DNA from: an uncultured Clostridia bacterium
Lineage (GTDB): Bacteria; Bacillota; Clostridia; Oscillospirales; Butyricicoccaceae
Direction: 5' to 3'
Assembly: GCA_944381055.1 (NCBI GenBank)
Contig: CALWJQ010000097.1
Span: 1 to 64,000 of the forward strand
DNA length: 64,000 bases
Below, piece by piece: positions 22,946-46,497 of the stretch. Position 1 is the first letter of the stretch. Every line of letters starts with the position of its first letter. Position numbers and translations under genes: made by a program. A model generated the notes under the pieces. It saw nothing but the letters and a program-made list of their open reading frames with translations, did not search any database and was not told the origin of the DNA.

Positions 22946-24127
22946 ATGGAGCTCATCGACACTCTGATTCTTGTCCCCCCGCAGGACGCGGCTTATCACA
23001 TTGAGCTGCTGTCCTGTACGGTTTTTGATCACATTGCCTCGGCGGCGGCCGCTTTTTCGCCGCAGCGCGTCTTCAGCCGCGGCCTGTGCGCAGGCAAAAG
23101 CGAATATGCCCAGTGCCTGGCTGCCGACGACCTGCCCGGTCTGGTCGACGCCTACCTGATGGCGTCCGACGCGCCGTCGGTTCTTTTGATCACCCGCCCG
23201 ACCCCGGCGCTGTCGCCCCAGACGCTGAACGCGCTGGCGCTGCTGGCCGAATCGGCCAACGGATCGGCCGTGCTGCGCGACGGCGACGGCGTTCTGGCCG
23301 TGCTGCTGCCGCGCGAATCGCTCGAAGCGTATGATTTCGATGGTTTTTCCGGCCTGTCGGCTGCGCAGCTGTGCGAGGATCTCAACGCCGTGGCGCATGA
23401 CGTGCCGCCTGACGAACGGCATGTGGTGACCGACACGGTCAGCGCCTATTACGCGCAGGAAGTGCTGCGCGCCCGCATCAACGTCTACTGGATGGAACAA
23501 GGCGTCTTGCTCGTCGACCCCAACACCACTTACATTTCCCCGCTGGCGCGCATCGGCGCAGGCAGCGTCGTCCTGCCCGGGTGCTTTTTCAACGGCCGCA
23601 CCCGTGTCGGCGAAGGCTGCCGCATCGGCCCCAACGCCTTTTTGCAGGACGCCGACATCGGCGACGGCGTCACCGTCAATTCTTCGCAGATCTTTGAAAG
23701 CTCGGTCGGCGCCGGCACGACGGTCGGACCCTTTGCCTATATCCGCCCCGGCTGCCAGGTGGGCGAAAAGGCGCGCATCGGCGATTTTGTCGAACTGAAA
23801 AAAGCACAGATAGGCGACGGGACCAAAGTGGCGCACCTGACCTATCTGGGCGACATCACGCTGGGGCGCCGCGTCAATGTCGGCTGCGGCGTGGTCGCCG
23901 TCAATTACGACGGCAAAGCCAAGCACCATTCCACAGTGGGCGATGACAGCTTCATCGGCTGCAACGTCAACCTGGTCTCGCCCGTCGAAGTGGGGCAGGA
24001 TGCCTACATCGCCGCCGGCACGACGGTGACCGAGGCAGTGCCCGGCGGATCGCTGTGCATCGGCCGCGCCCGGGCTGCCGTCAAGCCGGACTGGGTGAAA
24101 AAGCGGCGCGACAGCGGCAAGCTGTAA
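22946..24127 (+). CDS. glmU: GlmU-like protein with intact acetyltransferase and degenerate uridyltransferase half
   Basis: 393 residues, against about 450-460 for normal GlmU. The C-terminal 200 residues form a left-handed beta-helix with the GlmU acetyltransferase core H-L-T-Y-L-G-D, N-Y-D-G-K-A-K-H and A-A-G-T-T-V-T, which makes N-acetylglucosamine 1-phosphate. The N-terminal 190 residues lack the nucleotide loop L-A-A-G-x-G-T-R-M and the metal-binding G-D-x-P (I-T-R-P-T-P is found there), so UTP transfer is unlikely. The linker R-R-x-N region before the helix is recognisable (L-R-A-R-I-N-V-Y-W-M). Gene order with prs, pth and mfd supports orthology. The start follows AAAGGATGGGAG. Confidence 0.8.
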   Translation: MELIDTLILVPPQDAAYHIELLSCTVFDHIASAAAAFSPQRVFSRGLCAGKSEYAQCLAADDLPGLVDAYLMASDAPSVLLITRPTPALSPQTLNALALLAESANGSAVLRDGDGVLAVLLPRESLEAYDFDGFSGLSAAQLCEDLNAVAHDVPPDERHVVTDTVSAYYAQEVLRARINVYWMEQGVLLVDPNTTYISPLARIGAGSVVLPGCFFNGRTRVGEGCRIGPNAFLQDADIGDGVTVNSSQIFESSVGAGTTVGPFAYIRPGCQVGEKARIGDFVELKKAQIGDGTKVAHLTYLGDITLGRRVNVGCGVVAVNYDGKAKHHSTVGDDSFIGCNVNLVSPVEVGQDAYIAAGTTVTEAVPGGSLCIGRARAAVKPDWVKKRRDSGKL

Positions 24128-24164: not shown

Positions 24165-25124
24165 ATGATTCCGCACGGGACAAGCATCAAGATCTTTGCA
24201 GGCAATTCCAACCCTGCCCTGGCGCTTCAAATTGCGACTTCGCTGGGGCTCGAGCTGGGCAAGGCCGTCGTCACCAAATTTTCAGACGGCGAGATCTCGG
24301 TTTCCATCAACGAAACGGTGCGCGGCGCCGACGTTTTTGTCGTGCAGTCGACCTGTAACCCGGTCAACGACAACCTGATGGAAATGCTCATCATGATCGA
24401 TGCCTTCCGCCGCGCCAGCGCCGGCCGCATCACGGCGGTCATGCCCTATTTCGGCTATGCGCGCCAGGACCGCAAGACCAAAGCGCGCGACCCCATTTCG
24501 GCCAAGCTGGTCGCCGACCTTATTGAAGCGGCGGGCGCCGATCGTGTGCTGACCATGGATCTGCACGCATCGCAGCTGCAGGGGTTTTTCAACATCCCGG
24601 TCGACAACCTGCTGGGCACCTCGGTGCTCATCCCTTATTTTGCTGACAAATACGGCATGGGCAACGACAACGTTGTCGTCGTTGCGCCCGATCTCGGCTC
24701 GGTCGGCCGCGCCCGCAAGTTCACCGAGCGCCTTGACCTGCCGCTGGCCATCATCGACAAACGCCGCCAGCGCGCCAACGTGTCCGAAGTCATGAACATC
24801 ATCGGTGACGTGCGCGGCAAGCAGGTCATTCTGGTCGACGACATGATCGACACCGCCGGCACGCTGTGCAACGCCGCGGCGGCGCTCATGGATATCGGCG
24901 GCGCTAAAAATGTCGTTGCCTGCGCAACCCACGCCATTTTGTCCGGGCCCGCCATCGAACGGCTGGAAAACAGCGCGATTTCTGAAGTGTATTTGCTCGA
25001 CACCGTTCCCTTGCCGGCCAGCAAAAAGATTGATAAAATCAAGGTGCTGCCGGTTTCCAACATGTTCACCGAGGCCATCCGCCGCATTTACGAAGAGGCT
25101 TCTGTGTCCGAGATCTTTTCGTAA
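24165..25124 (+). CDS. prs: Ribose-phosphate pyrophosphokinase
   Basis: 319 residues, standard length. It makes PRPP from ribose 5-phosphate and ATP for nucleotide, histidine and NAD synthesis. Signatures are F-S-D-G-E-I at the N-terminus, D-L-H-A-S-Q-L-Q-G-F-F, and the PRPP loop V-D-D-M-I-D-T-A-G-T-L. It lies 37 nt after the glmU-like gene, as in Bacillus, with GGGGGT before the start. A hairpin follows it. Confidence 0.97.
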   Translation: MIPHGTSIKIFAGNSNPALALQIATSLGLELGKAVVTKFSDGEISVSINETVRGADVFVVQSTCNPVNDNLMEMLIMIDAFRRASAGRITAVMPYFGYARQDRKTKARDPISAKLVADLIEAAGADRVLTMDLHASQLQGFFNIPVDNLLGTSVLIPYFADKYGMGNDNVVVVAPDLGSVGRARKFTERLDLPLAIIDKRRQRANVSEVMNIIGDVRGKQVILVDDMIDTAGTLCNAAAALMDIGGAKNVVACATHAILSGPAIERLENSAISEVYLLDTVPLPASKKIDKIKVLPVSNMFTEAIRRIYEEASVSEIFS

Positions 25125-25191
25125 CGTGTATCCTTCCGCCGCGGGCCCGTCACAAACCCGGCGGCGCGGCGGATCCCGTATGTCTGACATG

Positions 25192-25220
25192 GCCGGCGGC
25201 TTTGGCCGCCGGCTTGTTTG
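25192..25220 (+). terminator. Hairpin with T-rich tail between prs and pth
   Basis: A 9-bp perfect GC stem (25192-25200 with 25205-25213), TTTG loop, then TTGTTTG. It may attenuate readthrough into pth. Confidence 0.6.
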
Positions 25221-25221
25221 C

Positions 25222-25854
25222 ATGTACCCGACAAAGGAAGTGTTCCCCATTTTCAGACGACACAAATCCCCCGCCGTGCAGACGGCGGACTTTATTGTGG
25301 CCGGGCTGGGCAACCCGGGCCGGCAGTATGAGACGACGCGCCACAACGCCGGCTTCATGGCGCTTGATCTGCTGGCCGAACGGCTGGGCGCCGGGCGGCT
25401 GACCCAAACGCGCTTCCGCTCGACTTACGCGGTCTGTACGCATGGCGGCAAGACCGTAGTGCTTATGAAGCCGCAGACCTATATGAACCTGTCCGGCGAG
25501 GCGGTGCGTGATATGGCCGCCGCCCTTTCGGTGCCGCCCGAACGGATTATTGCCGTGTTTGACGACATTTCCCTGCCGGCAGGGCGCATACGGGTGCGCC
25601 GCAGCGGTTCGGCCGGCGGGCACAACGGCATTAAGAACATTATTTATCAATTACAGTCCGACGCGTTTCCCCGCGTCAAAATCGGCGTCGGATCGCCGCA
25701 GAAGGGCGACGGGGATTTAAAAGACTTTGTTCTGGACACGCTCGGCAGCGACGCCTATGCGGGTGTGCGCATGGCGCCCGACGCCGTCCTGGCGATTATC
25801 GATCAGGGCGTCGACGCGGCGATGCAGGAATTCAACGGAAAGACGGCCGGCTAG
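25222..25854 (+). CDS. pth: Peptidyl-tRNA hydrolase
   Basis: 210 residues from the chosen start. It frees tRNA from stalled peptidyl-tRNA. Catalytic motifs are G-L-G-N-P-G (Asn), T-R-H-N-A-G-F (His) and F-D-D-I-S-L-P (Asp), with S-A-G-G-H-N-G-I-K later. The start is uncertain: ATG 25222 lies just past the terminator-like hairpin but has no good ribosome site, whereas AAAGGAAG at 25233-25240 would suit a start at or after 25240 (GTG 25240 is very close to it). Core function is unaffected. It is followed by mfd after 25 nt. Confidence 0.92.
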   Translation: MYPTKEVFPIFRRHKSPAVQTADFIVAGLGNPGRQYETTRHNAGFMALDLLAERLGAGRLTQTRFRSTYAVCTHGGKTVVLMKPQTYMNLSGEAVRDMAAALSVPPERIIAVFDDISLPAGRIRVRRSGSAGGHNGIKNIIYQLQSDAFPRVKIGVGSPQKGDGDLKDFVLDTLGSDAYAGVRMAPDAVLAIIDQGVDAAMQEFNGKTAG

Positions 25855-25879: not shown

Positions 25880-28800
25880 ATGGATAATACGCACAAAGTA
25901 CTGCTCGATTTGATGCGCGGCCTGCCGGAATACCGGCAGCTGGCCGCGGAAGCGCAGAGGGACGGCCCGCGGGTCGTCTCTCTTTACGGCGTTTCACACA
26001 TTCACAAAGCGCACATCGCTGCCACGCTGCTCGCCGATCTGGGCCGCCCTGTATGCGTCGTCACGCGCGACGAACAAAGCGCCCGGCGCATGGCGCTGGA
26101 CATCGAGGGCTTCTGCGGCCGGAAAGCCGCTTTTCTCCCGGTGCGGGATCTGGTGTTCCACAACATCGACAACGTCTCGCGTGAATACGAGCACCAGCGC
26201 ATCGGCGCGCTGCACGCCTTTGCTTCCGGGGAAGCGCAGGTGCTGGCCGCGCCCGTCGAAGCCATGATGCTGTCGACGCTGCCTCCCGATATTATGCACA
26301 GGGCCTCTGTCCGCCTCTGCATGGACGAGGACTATGATTTAAACCGCCTGGCAGCCCGTCTGACTGAGGCCGGGTACACAAACGCGCTGACCGTCGAAGG
26401 GCCGGGGCAATTTGCCCTGCGCGGCGGGATTCTGGATGTGTTCCCCGTCGGCGGGGAAGCCCCGGTGCGCGCCGAGTTTTTCGGCGACACCGTCGATTCG
26501 CTCGGCGTTTTCGATCCCATGACCCAGCGGCGCAGCCGCAATATCGACGCCTGCGACATTTTGCCTGCCCGTGAGACGCTGCCGCACATGGCCAAAGACG
26601 GCATCGCCGGCCTTGTCAAAACGCTGACCGCCCTGTCGCGCCGGGCAAACGACGCGCTGCGCGCCACGCTGCGGCAGGACATCGAGCGCCTGACCCAAAA
26701 CGGTCTGTTCGCCGCCTGCGACCGGTATCTTCCGCACATCTACCCCCGGCAGGCTTCGGGCTTTTCCTACCTGCCGGACAACGCCGTCATCATTGTCGAC
26801 GACACGCCCGCCGTCCTTGAAAGCGCGCGCGCCATGACCTACCGCCAAAACGAAGACCAGACCCACCTGCTCGAAGACGGCGTCCTCGCCCCCATGCGTT
26901 ACGGGTTTTCGCTGTCCGACGGCGAAGTGCGCAGCGTCATCGAGTCGCATACTGCCGTCCTGCTCGACGCCTTTTTGAGCCAGACCCCGCTGCGCCCGCA
27001 GGCTGTCATCGCGCTCGGGTGCAAGCAACTGCCCTCGTACGGCGGCAGCCTGGACACCGCGGTCAGCGACCTTGAAAGCTACCTGTCGATGCGGTACGCC
27101 CTGTTCGCCCTGGCCGGCGGCAGCCAGCGGGCGGCCAGCCTGCGCGAGCTGCTTGAAAGCCGGGGGCTTCCCTGCGTCACCGATGCCGCGCAGGCCGGGC
27201 CGGGCCGCATCTGCATCCTGCCGCAGAACCTGTCGGCCGGTTTTGAATACCCATATGCCATGACGGCGGTTATTACCGAAGGCCAGCTCGGGATGCAGCG
27301 CCCCAAACGCAAAAAAGAAGGGAAAAAGGACGCGCGCAACCGGCTGAAAAGTTATTCCGATCTGACGCCGGGCGACCTTGTCGTCCACGATCACCACGGC
27401 ATCGGCCGTTTCTGCGGCGTCGAGCGTATGACGGTCGACGGCGTGCAGCGGGATTATATCAAAATCGCCTACGCGGGCACCGACGTCGTCTTTGTCCCCG
27501 CGACTTCGCTCGACCTTGTGTCCAAATACATCGGTGCCGGCGAAGCCGATACCGTCAAGCTGAGCAAGCTGGGCGGCACAGCGTGGCAAAAGACCAAATC
27601 GCGCGCCAAAAAGGCGGCGCAGGATCTGGCCGCCGGGCTGATCGCCTTGTATTCGGCGCGCATGAAGCGCCCGGGGTTTGCCTTTTTCCCGGACGACGAC
27701 ATGCAGCTGGCCTTTGAAGAAAGCTTCCCTTATGACGAAACCGAGGATCAGCTGACCTGTGCGCGCGACATCAAGCGCGATATGGAAAAGCCGCACCCCA
27801 TGGACAGGCTTTTGTGCGGCGACGTCGGCTTCGGCAAGACCGAGGTCGCGTTCCGCGCCGTCATGAAATGCGTGCTTTCAGGCAAGCAGGCTGCTATTCT
27901 GGTTCCCACTACCGTGCTCGCCCGCCAGCACTACCTGACGGCCTGCCAGCGTTTTTCCGGCTACCCCGTCAAAATTGAAATGATGTCCCGCTACCGCACG
28001 GCCGGGCAGATGCGCGAAACGCTGCACCGGCTGCGCACCGGCCAGTGCGATGTGCTCATCGGCACTCACCGCATTTTGCAGAAGGACGTGCATTTTAAAG
28101 ACCTCGGCCTGCTCGTCGTCGACGAGGAACAGCGGTTCGGCGTGTCACACAAAGAGCAAATCAAGCAGATGACGACCTCGGTCGACGTGCTGACGCTGAC
28201 CGCAACCCCCATTCCCCGCACGCTCAACATGGCGCTGTCCGGCATCCGCGACATGTCGGTGCTTGAAGAGCCGCCGCTCGGCCGCCAACCGGTGCAGACC
28301 TATGTGCTCGAACACGACAACGCCATCATCCGCGACGCCATCCGGCGCGAATTGTCGCGCGGCGGCCAGGTCTACTACCTGCACAACCGCATCGACTCCA
28401 TCGAACAGACGGCGTCGTTTCTGCGGCAGCAGTTCCCCGAAGCCGTCGTCGCCACGGCGCACGGCCGCATGAGCGAAGAGCAGCTGTCCGACGTCATGAG
28501 CCGGACCTACGCCGGCGAAGTCGCCATTCTGGTGTGCACCACCATCATCGAAACGGGCGTCGATATTCCCAACGTCAACACACTCATCATCGAAAATGCC
28601 GACGCCATGGGCCTTGCGCAGCTGCACCAGATCCGCGGCCGCGTCGGCCGTTCGGCCCGGCATGCCTATGCCTATTTTACCTACCGTCGCGGCAAAGTGC
28701 TGTCAGAAATTTCGCAAAAGCGCCTGTCCGCCATCCGCGAGTTCGCCGAGTTCGGCTCAGGGTTTAAAATCGCCATGCGCGACCTTGAAATCCGCGGCGC

Positions 28801-29389
28801 GGGCAACGTCCTGGGCGCCGAACAGAGCGGCCACCTGATGAACGTCGGCTACGACCTGTATCTGCGGCTGCTGGAAGAAGCGGCGGGCGAGCTGTCGGGC
28901 CAGCCGGCGGCCGAACGCACCGAGTGTACCGCCGACATCCTGGTCTCGGCCAGCCTGCCGCAAAGCTATATTCCCGACGCCGGCACCCGCGTCGACCTGT
29001 ACCGCCGCATCGCCCTCATCCGTTCGCAGGACGACTATCTCGACATGCAGGACGAACTCATCGACCGTTTCGGCGACCCGCCGCAGCCGGTGCTCAACCT
29101 GCTGTCCATCGCCCTTTTGCGTGCGCACGCGTCAGAGTGCGGGGTCAGTGAAATCAACCACCGGTCCGGCTCCATGCAGTTTGTCTTTACCCCCGGCGTG
29201 CTGCAAAGCGCCTCGGCCGTCTGCGCCGATCCGGCCCTGCGCGGCCGGATTTTGATGAGCGCCGGCGAAAAGCCCTATCTTTCCCTGCGTCTCAAACCGA
29301 CGGACGACGTTTTAAAGGCGGCGTCTGATCTTGTCGCCCTGTGGAAGAGCAAGACCGACGAAATTCACGCTGCCGGCGATGCAAAATGA
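25880..29389 (+). CDS. mfd: Transcription-repair coupling factor
   Basis: 1169 residues, full length. Mfd removes RNA polymerase stalled at DNA damage and recruits UvrA. Domains in order: UvrB-homology N-terminus (to about 330), a degenerate D3, the CarD-like polymerase-interacting domain at about 490-560 (G-D-L-V-V-H-D-H-H-G-I-G-R-F), then the RecG-like translocase with Walker A G-D-V-G-F-G-K-T, D-E-E-Q-R-F and the motif VI Q-I-R-G-R-V-G-R, and the C-terminal TRCF domain. GAGGG precedes the start. Position after pth matches the Bacillus order; the small spoVT-like gene between them there is missing. Confidence 0.97.
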   Translation: MDNTHKVLLDLMRGLPEYRQLAAEAQRDGPRVVSLYGVSHIHKAHIAATLLADLGRPVCVVTRDEQSARRMALDIEGFCGRKAAFLPVRDLVFHNIDNVSREYEHQRIGALHAFASGEAQVLAAPVEAMMLSTLPPDIMHRASVRLCMDEDYDLNRLAARLTEAGYTNALTVEGPGQFALRGGILDVFPVGGEAPVRAEFFGDTVDSLGVFDPMTQRRSRNIDACDILPARETLPHMAKDGIAGLVKTLTALSRRANDALRATLRQDIERLTQNGLFAACDRYLPHIYPRQASGFSYLPDNAVIIVDDTPAVLESARAMTYRQNEDQTHLLEDGVLAPMRYGFSLSDGEVRSVIESHTAVLLDAFLSQTPLRPQAVIALGCKQLPSYGGSLDTAVSDLESYLSMRYALFALAGGSQRAASLRELLESRGLPCVTDAAQAGPGRICILPQNLSAGFEYPYAMTAVITEGQLGMQRPKRKKEGKKDARNRLKSYSDLTPGDLVVHDHHGIGRFCGVERMTVDGVQRDYIKIAYAGTDVVFVPATSLDLVSKYIGAGEADTVKLSKLGGTAWQKTKSRAKKAAQDLAAGLIALYSARMKRPGFAFFPDDDMQLAFEESFPYDETEDQLTCARDIKRDMEKPHPMDRLLCGDVGFGKTEVAFRAVMKCVLSGKQAAILVPTTVLARQHYLTACQRFSGYPVKIEMMSRYRTAGQMRETLHRLRTGQCDVLIGTHRILQKDVHFKDLGLLVVDEEQRFGVSHKEQIKQMTTSVDVLTLTATPIPRTLNMALSGIRDMSVLEEPPLGRQPVQTYVLEHDNAIIRDAIRRELSRGGQVYYLHNRIDSIEQTASFLRQQFPEAVVATAHGRMSEEQLSDVMSRTYAGEVAILVCTTIIETGVDIPNVNTLIIENADAMGLAQLHQIRGRVGRSARHAYAYFTYRRGKVLSEISQKRLSAIREFAEFGSGFKIAMRDLEIRGAGNVLGAEQSGHLMNVGYDLYLRLLEEAAGELSGQPAAERTECTADILVSASLPQSYIPDAGTRVDLYRRIALIRSQDDYLDMQDELIDRFGDPPQPVLNLLSIALLRAHASECGVSEINHRSGSMQFVFTPGVLQSASAVCADPALRGRILMSAGEKPYLSLRLKPTDDVLKAASDLVALWKSKTDEIHAAGDAK

Positions 29390-45093: not shown

Positions 45094-46497
45094 ATGACAG
45101 CTTTTGAAGAATACCTGCACGCCGTGCGCGGCAAAAAAGTCGCTGTGCTGGGCATCGGCGTTTCCAACACGCCCCTGCTGCGGCTTCTGGTCCGCGCGGG
45201 CGCCCGCGTCACCGCCTGCGACAAAAAAAGTGAAGACGAGCTGGGCGAGCGCGCCGCCGAACTGCGCGCCCTGGGCGTCCAGCTCTATACCGGTCCCGAC
45301 TACCTCGACGGCGTCGAAGCGTCGGGCGCCGAACTGGTTTTCCGCACGCCCGGCATGCGGCCCGACCTGCCCGCCCTGATGCGCGCCCGTGCGCGCGGCG
45401 CCGAGATCACCAGTGAAATGGAAGTCTTTTTTGCCGTCTGCCCCTGCCCCATCATCGCCGTCACCGGTTCAGACGGCAAAACGACGACCACAACGGTCAT
45501 CGCTGAAATGCTGCGCGCCGCCGGACGGCGGGTCTTCCTGGGCGGCAATATCGGCACGCCGCTGCTCGACCGCACCGGCGAAATGTCGGCGGACGATCTG
45601 TGCGTACTCGAGCTTTCATCCTTCCAGCTCATGAGTATGCGCCAGAGCCCGCACATCGCCGTCGTTACCAATCTTGCGCCCAACCACCTGGACGTACACC
45701 GCGGCATGGAAGAATACGTCGACGCTAAGCGCAATATTTTCCGTTTCCAGGCTCCGGACGACGTCCTGGTGCTCAACCTGGACAACGCCGTCACCCGTTC
45801 GTTCGCCGCTGAAAGCCGGGCCGAAGTGCGCTTCTTTTCGCGTCTGGACCGGCCGGTGCACGGCGTCTGGCTCGACGGCACCCGCATCGTCTGCGACGGG
45901 CAGGAACTGATGAATCGCAGCGACATCCGTATCCCCGGCGATCACAACGTCGAAAACTACATGGCCGCCTGCGCCGCCGTCGCCGGGCTGGTTCCCCCTG
46001 CTGTCATGCGGCAGGTCGCCCGCGAATTCCCGGGCGTCGAACACCGGCTGGAACTGGTGCGTGCAATCGGCGGCGCGATGTGGTATAATGATTCCATCGC
46101 ATCCAGCCCGACCCGCGCCATTGCCGGCCTTAAATGCTTTGACGGCCCCATCATCCTCATTGCGGGCGGATACGACAAGCACATTCCCTTTGACGGGCTG
46201 GGCCGTGAAATTTGCGCCCGCGTCGGCACGCTGTTGTTATGCGGCGCCACGGCCGACAAAATCGAGGCTGCCGTCCTTGCGGCCGAAGGCGGGCAAAAAC
46301 CCCGTATTTTCCGGCTGGACAGCCTGGAAGAGACTGTGCATAAGGCCTGGGAGCTGGCGCAGCCGGGCGACACCGTGCTCTTTTCGCCGGCGTGCGCGTC
46401 CTTTGATCAGTTCCCCAATTTCATGAAGCGCGGCGAGCGCTTCAAAGATCTGGTACGTGCCCTGCCCGAACCCGGCCGGGACGGCAGTTTGCGGTAA
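45094..46497 (+). CDS. murD: UDP-N-acetylmuramoyl-L-alanine--D-glutamate ligase
   Basis: 467 residues. It adds D-glutamate to the muramyl peptide in peptidoglycan synthesis. The ATP loop is T-G-S-D-G-K-T-T-T-T, followed by L-E-L-S-S-F-Q-L, N-L-A-P-N-H-L-D-V-H-R and Y-N-D-S-I-A-S-S-P-T-R, all Mur ligase marks. GGGAGC precedes the start. Unusually it is not in a dcw (mraY-murD-murG-ftsW) cluster but stands alone beside rnpB. Confidence 0.96.
   Translation: MTAFEEYLHAVRGKKVAVLGIGVSNTPLLRLLVRAGARVTACDKKSEDELGERAAELRALGVQLYTGPDYLDGVEASGAELVFRTPGMRPDLPALMRARARGAEITSEMEVFFAVCPCPIIAVTGSDGKTTTTTVIAEMLRAAGRRVFLGGNIGTPLLDRTGEMSADDLCVLELSSFQLMSMRQSPHIAVVTNLAPNHLDVHRGMEEYVDAKRNIFRFQAPDDVLVLNLDNAVTRSFAAESRAEVRFFSRLDRPVHGVWLDGTRIVCDGQELMNRSDIRIPGDHNVENYMAACAAVAGLVPPAVMRQVAREFPGVEHRLELVRAIGGAMWYNDSIASSPTRAIAGLKCFDGPIILIAGGYDKHIPFDGLGREICARVGTLLLCGATADKIEAAVLAAEGGQKPRIFRLDSLEETVHKAWELAQPGDTVLFSPACASFDQFPNFMKRGERFKDLVRALPEPGRDGSLR

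Follow-up and report, generated by a model that had tools for sequence, protein, structure and literature searches.

The stretch of DNA analysed here (the window; 64,000 nucleotides) carries an ortholog of glmU in the gene order glmU-prs-pth-mfd, with prs, pth and mfd as the neighbours of this frame, as the preliminary description of the locus had stated. The features are listed in Table 1. The late beginning of the family match in the pth frame places the true pth start near or before position 25294.

Table 1. Features of the glmU locus, and murD, in the window
Feature	Position	Strand	Basis
glmU ortholog, 393 aa, ATG start; acetyltransferase half intact, uridyltransferase half degenerate	22946-24127	+	ORF, profile, alignment, fold, motifs
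N-terminal domain, residues 1-160; shortened GT-A fold (predicted) without uridyltransferase motifs	22946-23425	+	profiles, model, motif scan, dN/dS ~0.16
Codons 84-87 (RPTP), opposite the GDAP metal site of full GlmU	23195-23206	+	alignments
Linker helix, residues 164-184	23435-23497	+	secondary structure of model
Left-handed β-helix acetyltransferase domain, residues 186-376	23501-24073	+	invariant residues, structural match
prs, ribose-phosphate diphosphokinase	24165-25124	+	synteny
pth ORF, aminoacyl-tRNA hydrolase	24910-25854	+	family match begins at residue 129
mfd, transcription-repair coupling factor	25880-29389	+	synteny
murD	45094-46494	+	TIGR01087, 363 bits, cut-off 212

The NCBIfam GlmU models listed for the protein all give alignments that start at residue 144 or later. 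PRK14354 (model positions 217-447; 300 bits, cut-off 450) and TIGR01173 (model positions 223-451; 259 bits, cut-off 366.85) cover the C-terminal part of the protein, which falls below both curated cut-offs. Pfam assigns hexapeptide-type families only, with no match to a nucleotidyltransferase family, and TIGR03991 (alt_bact_glmU) is not among the best 25 of the 53 families listed. Among PDB sequences, residues 159-382 match S. aureus GlmU best. The left-handed β-helix acetyltransferase domain of GlmU is present by profile, PDB and structural matches, and Arg267, Lys285, His297, Tyr300, Asn311, Asn320, Tyr321, Lys326, Cys339 and Arg374 are identical in all 38 aligned sequences, in agreement with the earlier statement that the catalytic residues of this half are kept. 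The ten include the residues that align with the active site of E. coli GlmU, from which their catalytic role is taken. This half is intact and, judged from its sequence, is predicted to be active.

The N-terminal half was scored for five uridyltransferase motifs: the nucleotide loop, GTG, GDxP, GYGR and ExN. None of the five occurs in residues 1-160, and of the 18 full GlmU proteins in the sample of the order, 17 have all five and one has four. In alignments with full GlmU, Arg84-Pro85-Thr86-Pro87 stand opposite GDAP, and three other stretches (nucleotide loop, GTG, GYGR/ExN) are deleted, which rules out that the motifs are merely shifted. The preliminary description had noted a shorter N-terminal half without the nucleotide loop and the G-D-x-P site and had proposed an alignment of this half with GlmU; the alignments and the model bear these losses out, with the motif segments deleted or replaced and the GT-A fold kept in the model. 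Loss of the uridyltransferase function appears, from these motifs, close to certain.

An AlphaFold model, computed from an alignment of 38 sequences of which eight were full GlmU, has a pLDDT of 92.8, and its residues 3-376 superpose on S. pneumoniae GlmU (PDB entry 4aaw) with a Z-score of 38.3 and an r.m.s.d. of 2.6 for 367 residues. In this model the N-terminal half adopts the GT-A fold of GlmU in shortened form. Profiles of the N-terminal domain were built for three groups, with 15 (one being the window's protein), 18 and 10 sequences, and for 10 full GlmU proteins. For the Butyricicoccus group against full GlmU the probability is 95% (E value 3e-8), and for the window's group against the Butyricicoccus group it is 94%; compared directly with full GlmU, the window's group gives a weak match (21%, 32 columns) and the Flavonifractor group one of 34%. 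The maximum among column-shuffled controls, 40 per group, is 2.3%. The case for homology of the window's N-terminal domain to that of GlmU is made by the link through the Butyricicoccus group, by the fold and by the synteny.

Compared with L226, an 82% identical relative, the N-terminal domain has a dN of 0.114 and a dS of 0.737 (dN/dS ~0.16), and the C-terminal domain has a dN of 0.101 and a dS of 0.530 (dN/dS 0.19). The N-terminal domain is under purifying selection and at short range is about as conserved as the active half, and these ratios rule out a decaying remnant that has no function. At longer range it diverges faster, with 27% identity to L237 compared with 59% for the C-terminal domain.

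A scan of GTDB species genomes gave 80 loci, with the reading frame recovered in all but one, and in 65 of these 79 relatives none of the five motifs is found. The carriers include Butyricicoccus pullicaecorum DSM 23266 (L246), Agathobaculum desmolans ATCC 43058 (L250), A. butyriciproducens DSM 100391 (L279), Intestinibacillus massiliensis (L252) and Flavonifractor sp. AGMB03687 (L290). Motif-less GlmU is a clade-wide state, and its recurrence in 65 of 79 relatives rules out a sequencing, assembly, frameshift or gene-calling artefact. By tblastn, prs lies downstream in 62 of the 65 loci that lack the loop motif and have at least 1.3 kb of downstream sequence. Within the order sample the size of the N-terminal domain ranges from complete through ~190 and ~120 residues to absent. 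The earlier interpretation of the gene as a changed ortholog is upheld by the synteny with prs (62/65), the profile matches (95% and 94%) and the predicted fold; an unrelated acetyltransferase is ruled out by synteny and fold.

The genome to which the window belongs (G000; 2.1 Mb, 97% complete) has the genes for GlmM and GlmS side by side on contig C35. The murD gene in the window implies that the cell makes peptidoglycan and therefore needs UDP-GlcNAc, and with GlmM and GlmS the precursor GlcN-1-P can be made. A search of this genome with PF00483 returned a single match, a protein of 302 residues on contig C41 (C41:981-1889), and no GalU; a PF12804 search added IspD (C32) and two sub-threshold matches, and UDPGP gave no match. 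The search for a stand-alone uridyltransferase that the preliminary description had proposed thus yields one candidate. The C41 protein matches PDB entry 3pnn over its whole length (E value 2e-84), an entry with the title 'Conserved domain protein' and no named function; the function that we propose below comes from genome context. We take the source organism of this structure to be Porphyromonas gingivalis (Bacteroidetes). Residues Ala14, Ala15, Gly16, Arg20, Lys25, Gln26, Gly104, Thr105, Ala108, Asp126 and Asp127 (numbered by the reference sequence of the 43-member alignment) are invariant in 43 of 43 members of the 3pnn family, and the C41 protein keeps the nucleotidyltransferase signature and the metal-site aspartate. 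It is the likely candidate for a replacement uridyltransferase.

Contig C41 has a G+C content of 0.61 (window, 0.60) and also carries genes for PBP1A and a UgtP-like glycosyltransferase. At the end of the contig, the 3pnn-type gene is immediately preceded by an IS481-type transposase (L001:19-876, contig C41). The gene tree places the 3pnn-type proteins of the window's family in two clades, so a single acquisition followed by inheritance does not account for them. The transposase and the two-clade tree hint at horizontal transfer of the 3pnn-type gene.

The distribution of uridyltransferase classes was compared across 117 genomes of the order, which we take to be Oscillospirales; the sampled genomes are grouped by family numbers f1 to f26. 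The 3pnn type occurs in 59 and UDPGP in 6; among the matches listed (to an E value of ~5e-13), full GlmU occurs in 18 and a stand-alone GlmU N-terminal domain in 19. Co-occurrence is rare: the 3pnn type is found with full GlmU in 2/117 and with the stand-alone domain in 2/117 among the matches listed (G031, G063, G087 and G095), and with UDPGP in 0/117. Exactly one of the two classes, the 3pnn type or a GlmU uridyltransferase domain or UDPGP, is present in 93 of the 117 genomes among the matches listed; 20,000 within-family label shuffles averaged 73, went no higher than 87 and never reached the observed value. With UDPGP left out the count is 88/117, against a shuffle mean of 74, and was reached once in 20,000. 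Kinship is ignored by Fisher tests and is controlled by the label shuffles at the family level only. These results support mutual exclusion of the 3pnn type and GlmU uridyltransferase domains beyond family structure.

All eight genomes of the window's family have the 3pnn type, GlmM and the GlmU acetyltransferase, and none of the eight has a GlmU-type or UDPGP uridyltransferase. Family f26 is mixed: full GlmU stands alone in G067 and G108 and is accompanied by the 3pnn type in G031 and G095, and G050 and G082 combine a motif-less GlmU with the 3pnn type. In a sample of the phylum, full GlmU is present in 276 of 299 genomes and the 3pnn type in five, all of them among the 23 genomes that lack full GlmU; three of the five carriers lie outside the window's order. 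Neither the 3pnn type nor a GlmU-type or UDPGP enzyme was found in 20 of the 117 order genomes among the matches listed, 11 of which are at least 90% complete, so other solutions exist. The GlmU acetyltransferase is present and full GlmU absent in seven of these 20, and all 20 have PF00483 proteins, many of them GalU-sized.

In 15 of the 34 order genomes that carry both genes, the 3pnn-type gene adjoins a relative of N-acetylhexosamine 1-kinase (NahK). These 15 genomes span six families, and the gap between the two genes is 106 bp or less. One linked kinase sequence was searched and matched N-acetylhexosamine 1-kinase (PDB entry 4ocu) with an E value of 7e-98. A NahK-type neighbour points to a HexNAc-1-P as the likely substrate of the 3pnn-type enzyme. 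GalE is another neighbour of the 3pnn-type gene in several genomes. A NahK relative occurs in 23 of the 25 order genomes without GlmM and in 36 of the 92 with GlmM, which suggests GlcNAc salvage in place of de novo synthesis in the former; none of the eight genomes of the window's family has one. At G087:C15:702-2637 a stand-alone GlmU N-terminal domain lies beside a NahK relative, in the place taken elsewhere by the 3pnn-type gene.

We consider it probable, at roughly 0.7, that in the window's GlmU an acetyltransferase is joined to a pseudo-uridyltransferase domain and that UDP-GlcNAc is made by the 3pnn-type enzyme. The route would run from GlmS through GlmM and the GlmU acetyltransferase to the 3pnn-type enzyme. 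The window's GlmU would have kept the conversion of GlcN-1-P and acetyl-CoA to GlcNAc-1-P and lost the formation of UDP-GlcNAc, with its N-terminal domain retained as a catalytically dead, shortened GT-A domain that probably serves folding, trimer stability or regulation. The reaction of GlcNAc-1-P with UTP to UDP-GlcNAc would fall to the stand-alone 3pnn-family nucleotidyltransferase on contig C41. The preliminary description had supposed that the two GlmU steps may have separated and that another uridyltransferase must be at work; we infer the same from the C41 candidate, its standing as the sole PF00483 match and the exclusion pattern in the order and the phylum. Counterpoints to replacement are the 20 order genomes with neither class and the four with both, the two clades of the 3pnn-type proteins in the window's family, and the position of the 3pnn-type gene on another contig than glmU, in an assembly that is 97% complete.

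The 3pnn-type enzyme might instead have taken the place of GalU and make UDP-glucose, with UDP-GlcNAc coming from an unrecognised uridyltransferase. The absence of a recognised GalU from G000 makes a UDP-glucose role possible, either instead or in addition, and the UgtP-like glycosyltransferase on the same contig fits it, as known UgtP relatives use UDP-glucose; the GalE neighbours and the PF00483 proteins in 20 of 20 genomes that lack both enzyme classes, many GalU-sized, point the same way. However, the exclusion concerns GlmU uridyltransferase domains, and does so within families, order and phylum, the neighbouring kinase belongs to the N-acetylhexosamine 1-kinase family, and the PF00483, PF12804 and UDPGP searches gave no other uridyltransferase candidate in G000. 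We therefore regard this assignment as unlikely; an enzyme of dual specificity would fit both roles. Far less probable is a dependence on outside GlcNAc or salvage with the window's GlmU as a relic: the NahK relatives in 23 of 25 GlmM-less order genomes speak for it, but GlmM is present in G000 and its family, GlmS is present in G000, NahK relatives are found in 0/8 family genomes and the acetyltransferase residues are invariant. Equally improbable is an N-terminal domain that still acts as a uridyltransferase through a rebuilt active site, which the kept fold and purifying selection (dN 0.11, dS 0.74) would allow, but which would have to do without the nucleotide loop, metal-site aspartate, GTG and GYGR/ExN, in a domain that diverges fast (27% against 59% identity to L237) and is down to ~120 residues or nothing in relatives.

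GlmU counts as a textbook essential enzyme and as a drug target; to our knowledge it is usually taken to be universal and bifunctional in bacteria. The window's protein shares with bifunctional GlmU (TIGR01173, PRK14354) the locus, the acetyltransferase domain with its catalytic residues and the overall fold, but it lacks the uridyltransferase motifs and ~60 residues of the N-terminal domain and scores under both curated cut-offs. With the NahK route (PDB entries 4ocu and 4wh1) the order shares a kinase relative next to the 3pnn-type gene in 15 genomes; the window's genome and family differ from that route in having no NahK relative and in having GlmM and the GlmU acetyltransferase. The titles and opening parts of abstracts in the open-access literature gave no earlier report of a GlmU that has lost its uridyltransferase half, or of its replacement. 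A mirror image is described in the excerpted text on rickettsial GlmU, which likewise has lost one half in a lineage, there the acetyltransferase domain, with host GlcNAc-1-P proposed as the source (PMC5615194). The excerpted text of PMC7725333 describes several genomes from Bacteroidetes and related phyla that have lost GlmS or GlmU and reads this as pathway loss, to which replacement by another enzyme is a testable alternative.

Where the GlmU acetyltransferase is missing, genomes of the order often encode a stand-alone protein of ~221 residues, in several cases beside glmM; examples are L209:5159-5821 (-) and L219:3173-3841 (+). Two such proteins were examined and correspond to the archaeal GlmU model TIGR03992 in its acetyltransferase half (E values of 2e-42 and 5e-36), and one, compared with the PDB, matches entries 2ggo and 5z09 best (Sulfolobus tokodaii ST0452). 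The archaeal acetyltransferase half thus occurs as a stand-alone gene in these genomes, whereas in G000 none was seen beside glmM and the GlmU acetyltransferase is kept.

The order seems to have rebuilt the route to UDP-GlcNAc in several ways. A wider reading, to which we give slightly less than even odds, is that the order has dismantled bifunctional GlmU on many occasions; that its uridyltransferase step has passed to the 3pnn family, as a new UDP-GlcNAc pyrophosphorylase of general use, to a stand-alone GlmU N-terminal domain or to UDPGP; that its acetyltransferase step has passed to an archaeal-type enzyme beside glmM; and that GlmM has given way to NahK salvage. If true, the GlmU gap published for Bacteroidetes (excerpted text of PMC7725333), the source group of the 3pnn structure, would be closed by the 3pnn family as well. 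Common gut bacteria (Butyricicoccus, Agathobaculum and relatives of Flavonifractor) carry a GlmU of which one half is, by its motifs, almost certainly dead, and the 3pnn family, with a solved structure and no assigned function, gains a specific and testable role.

Two families of the order show further arrangements. In family f10 (G009, G034, G053, G069, G083, G096 and G109) GlmU, GlmM and the 3pnn type were not found, and all seven genomes have a NahK relative and PF00483 proteins. In family f7, G030, G049 and G094 carry two tandem copies of the 3pnn-type gene, together with a GlmU frame of only ~331 residues in which the N-terminal domain measures ~120 residues.
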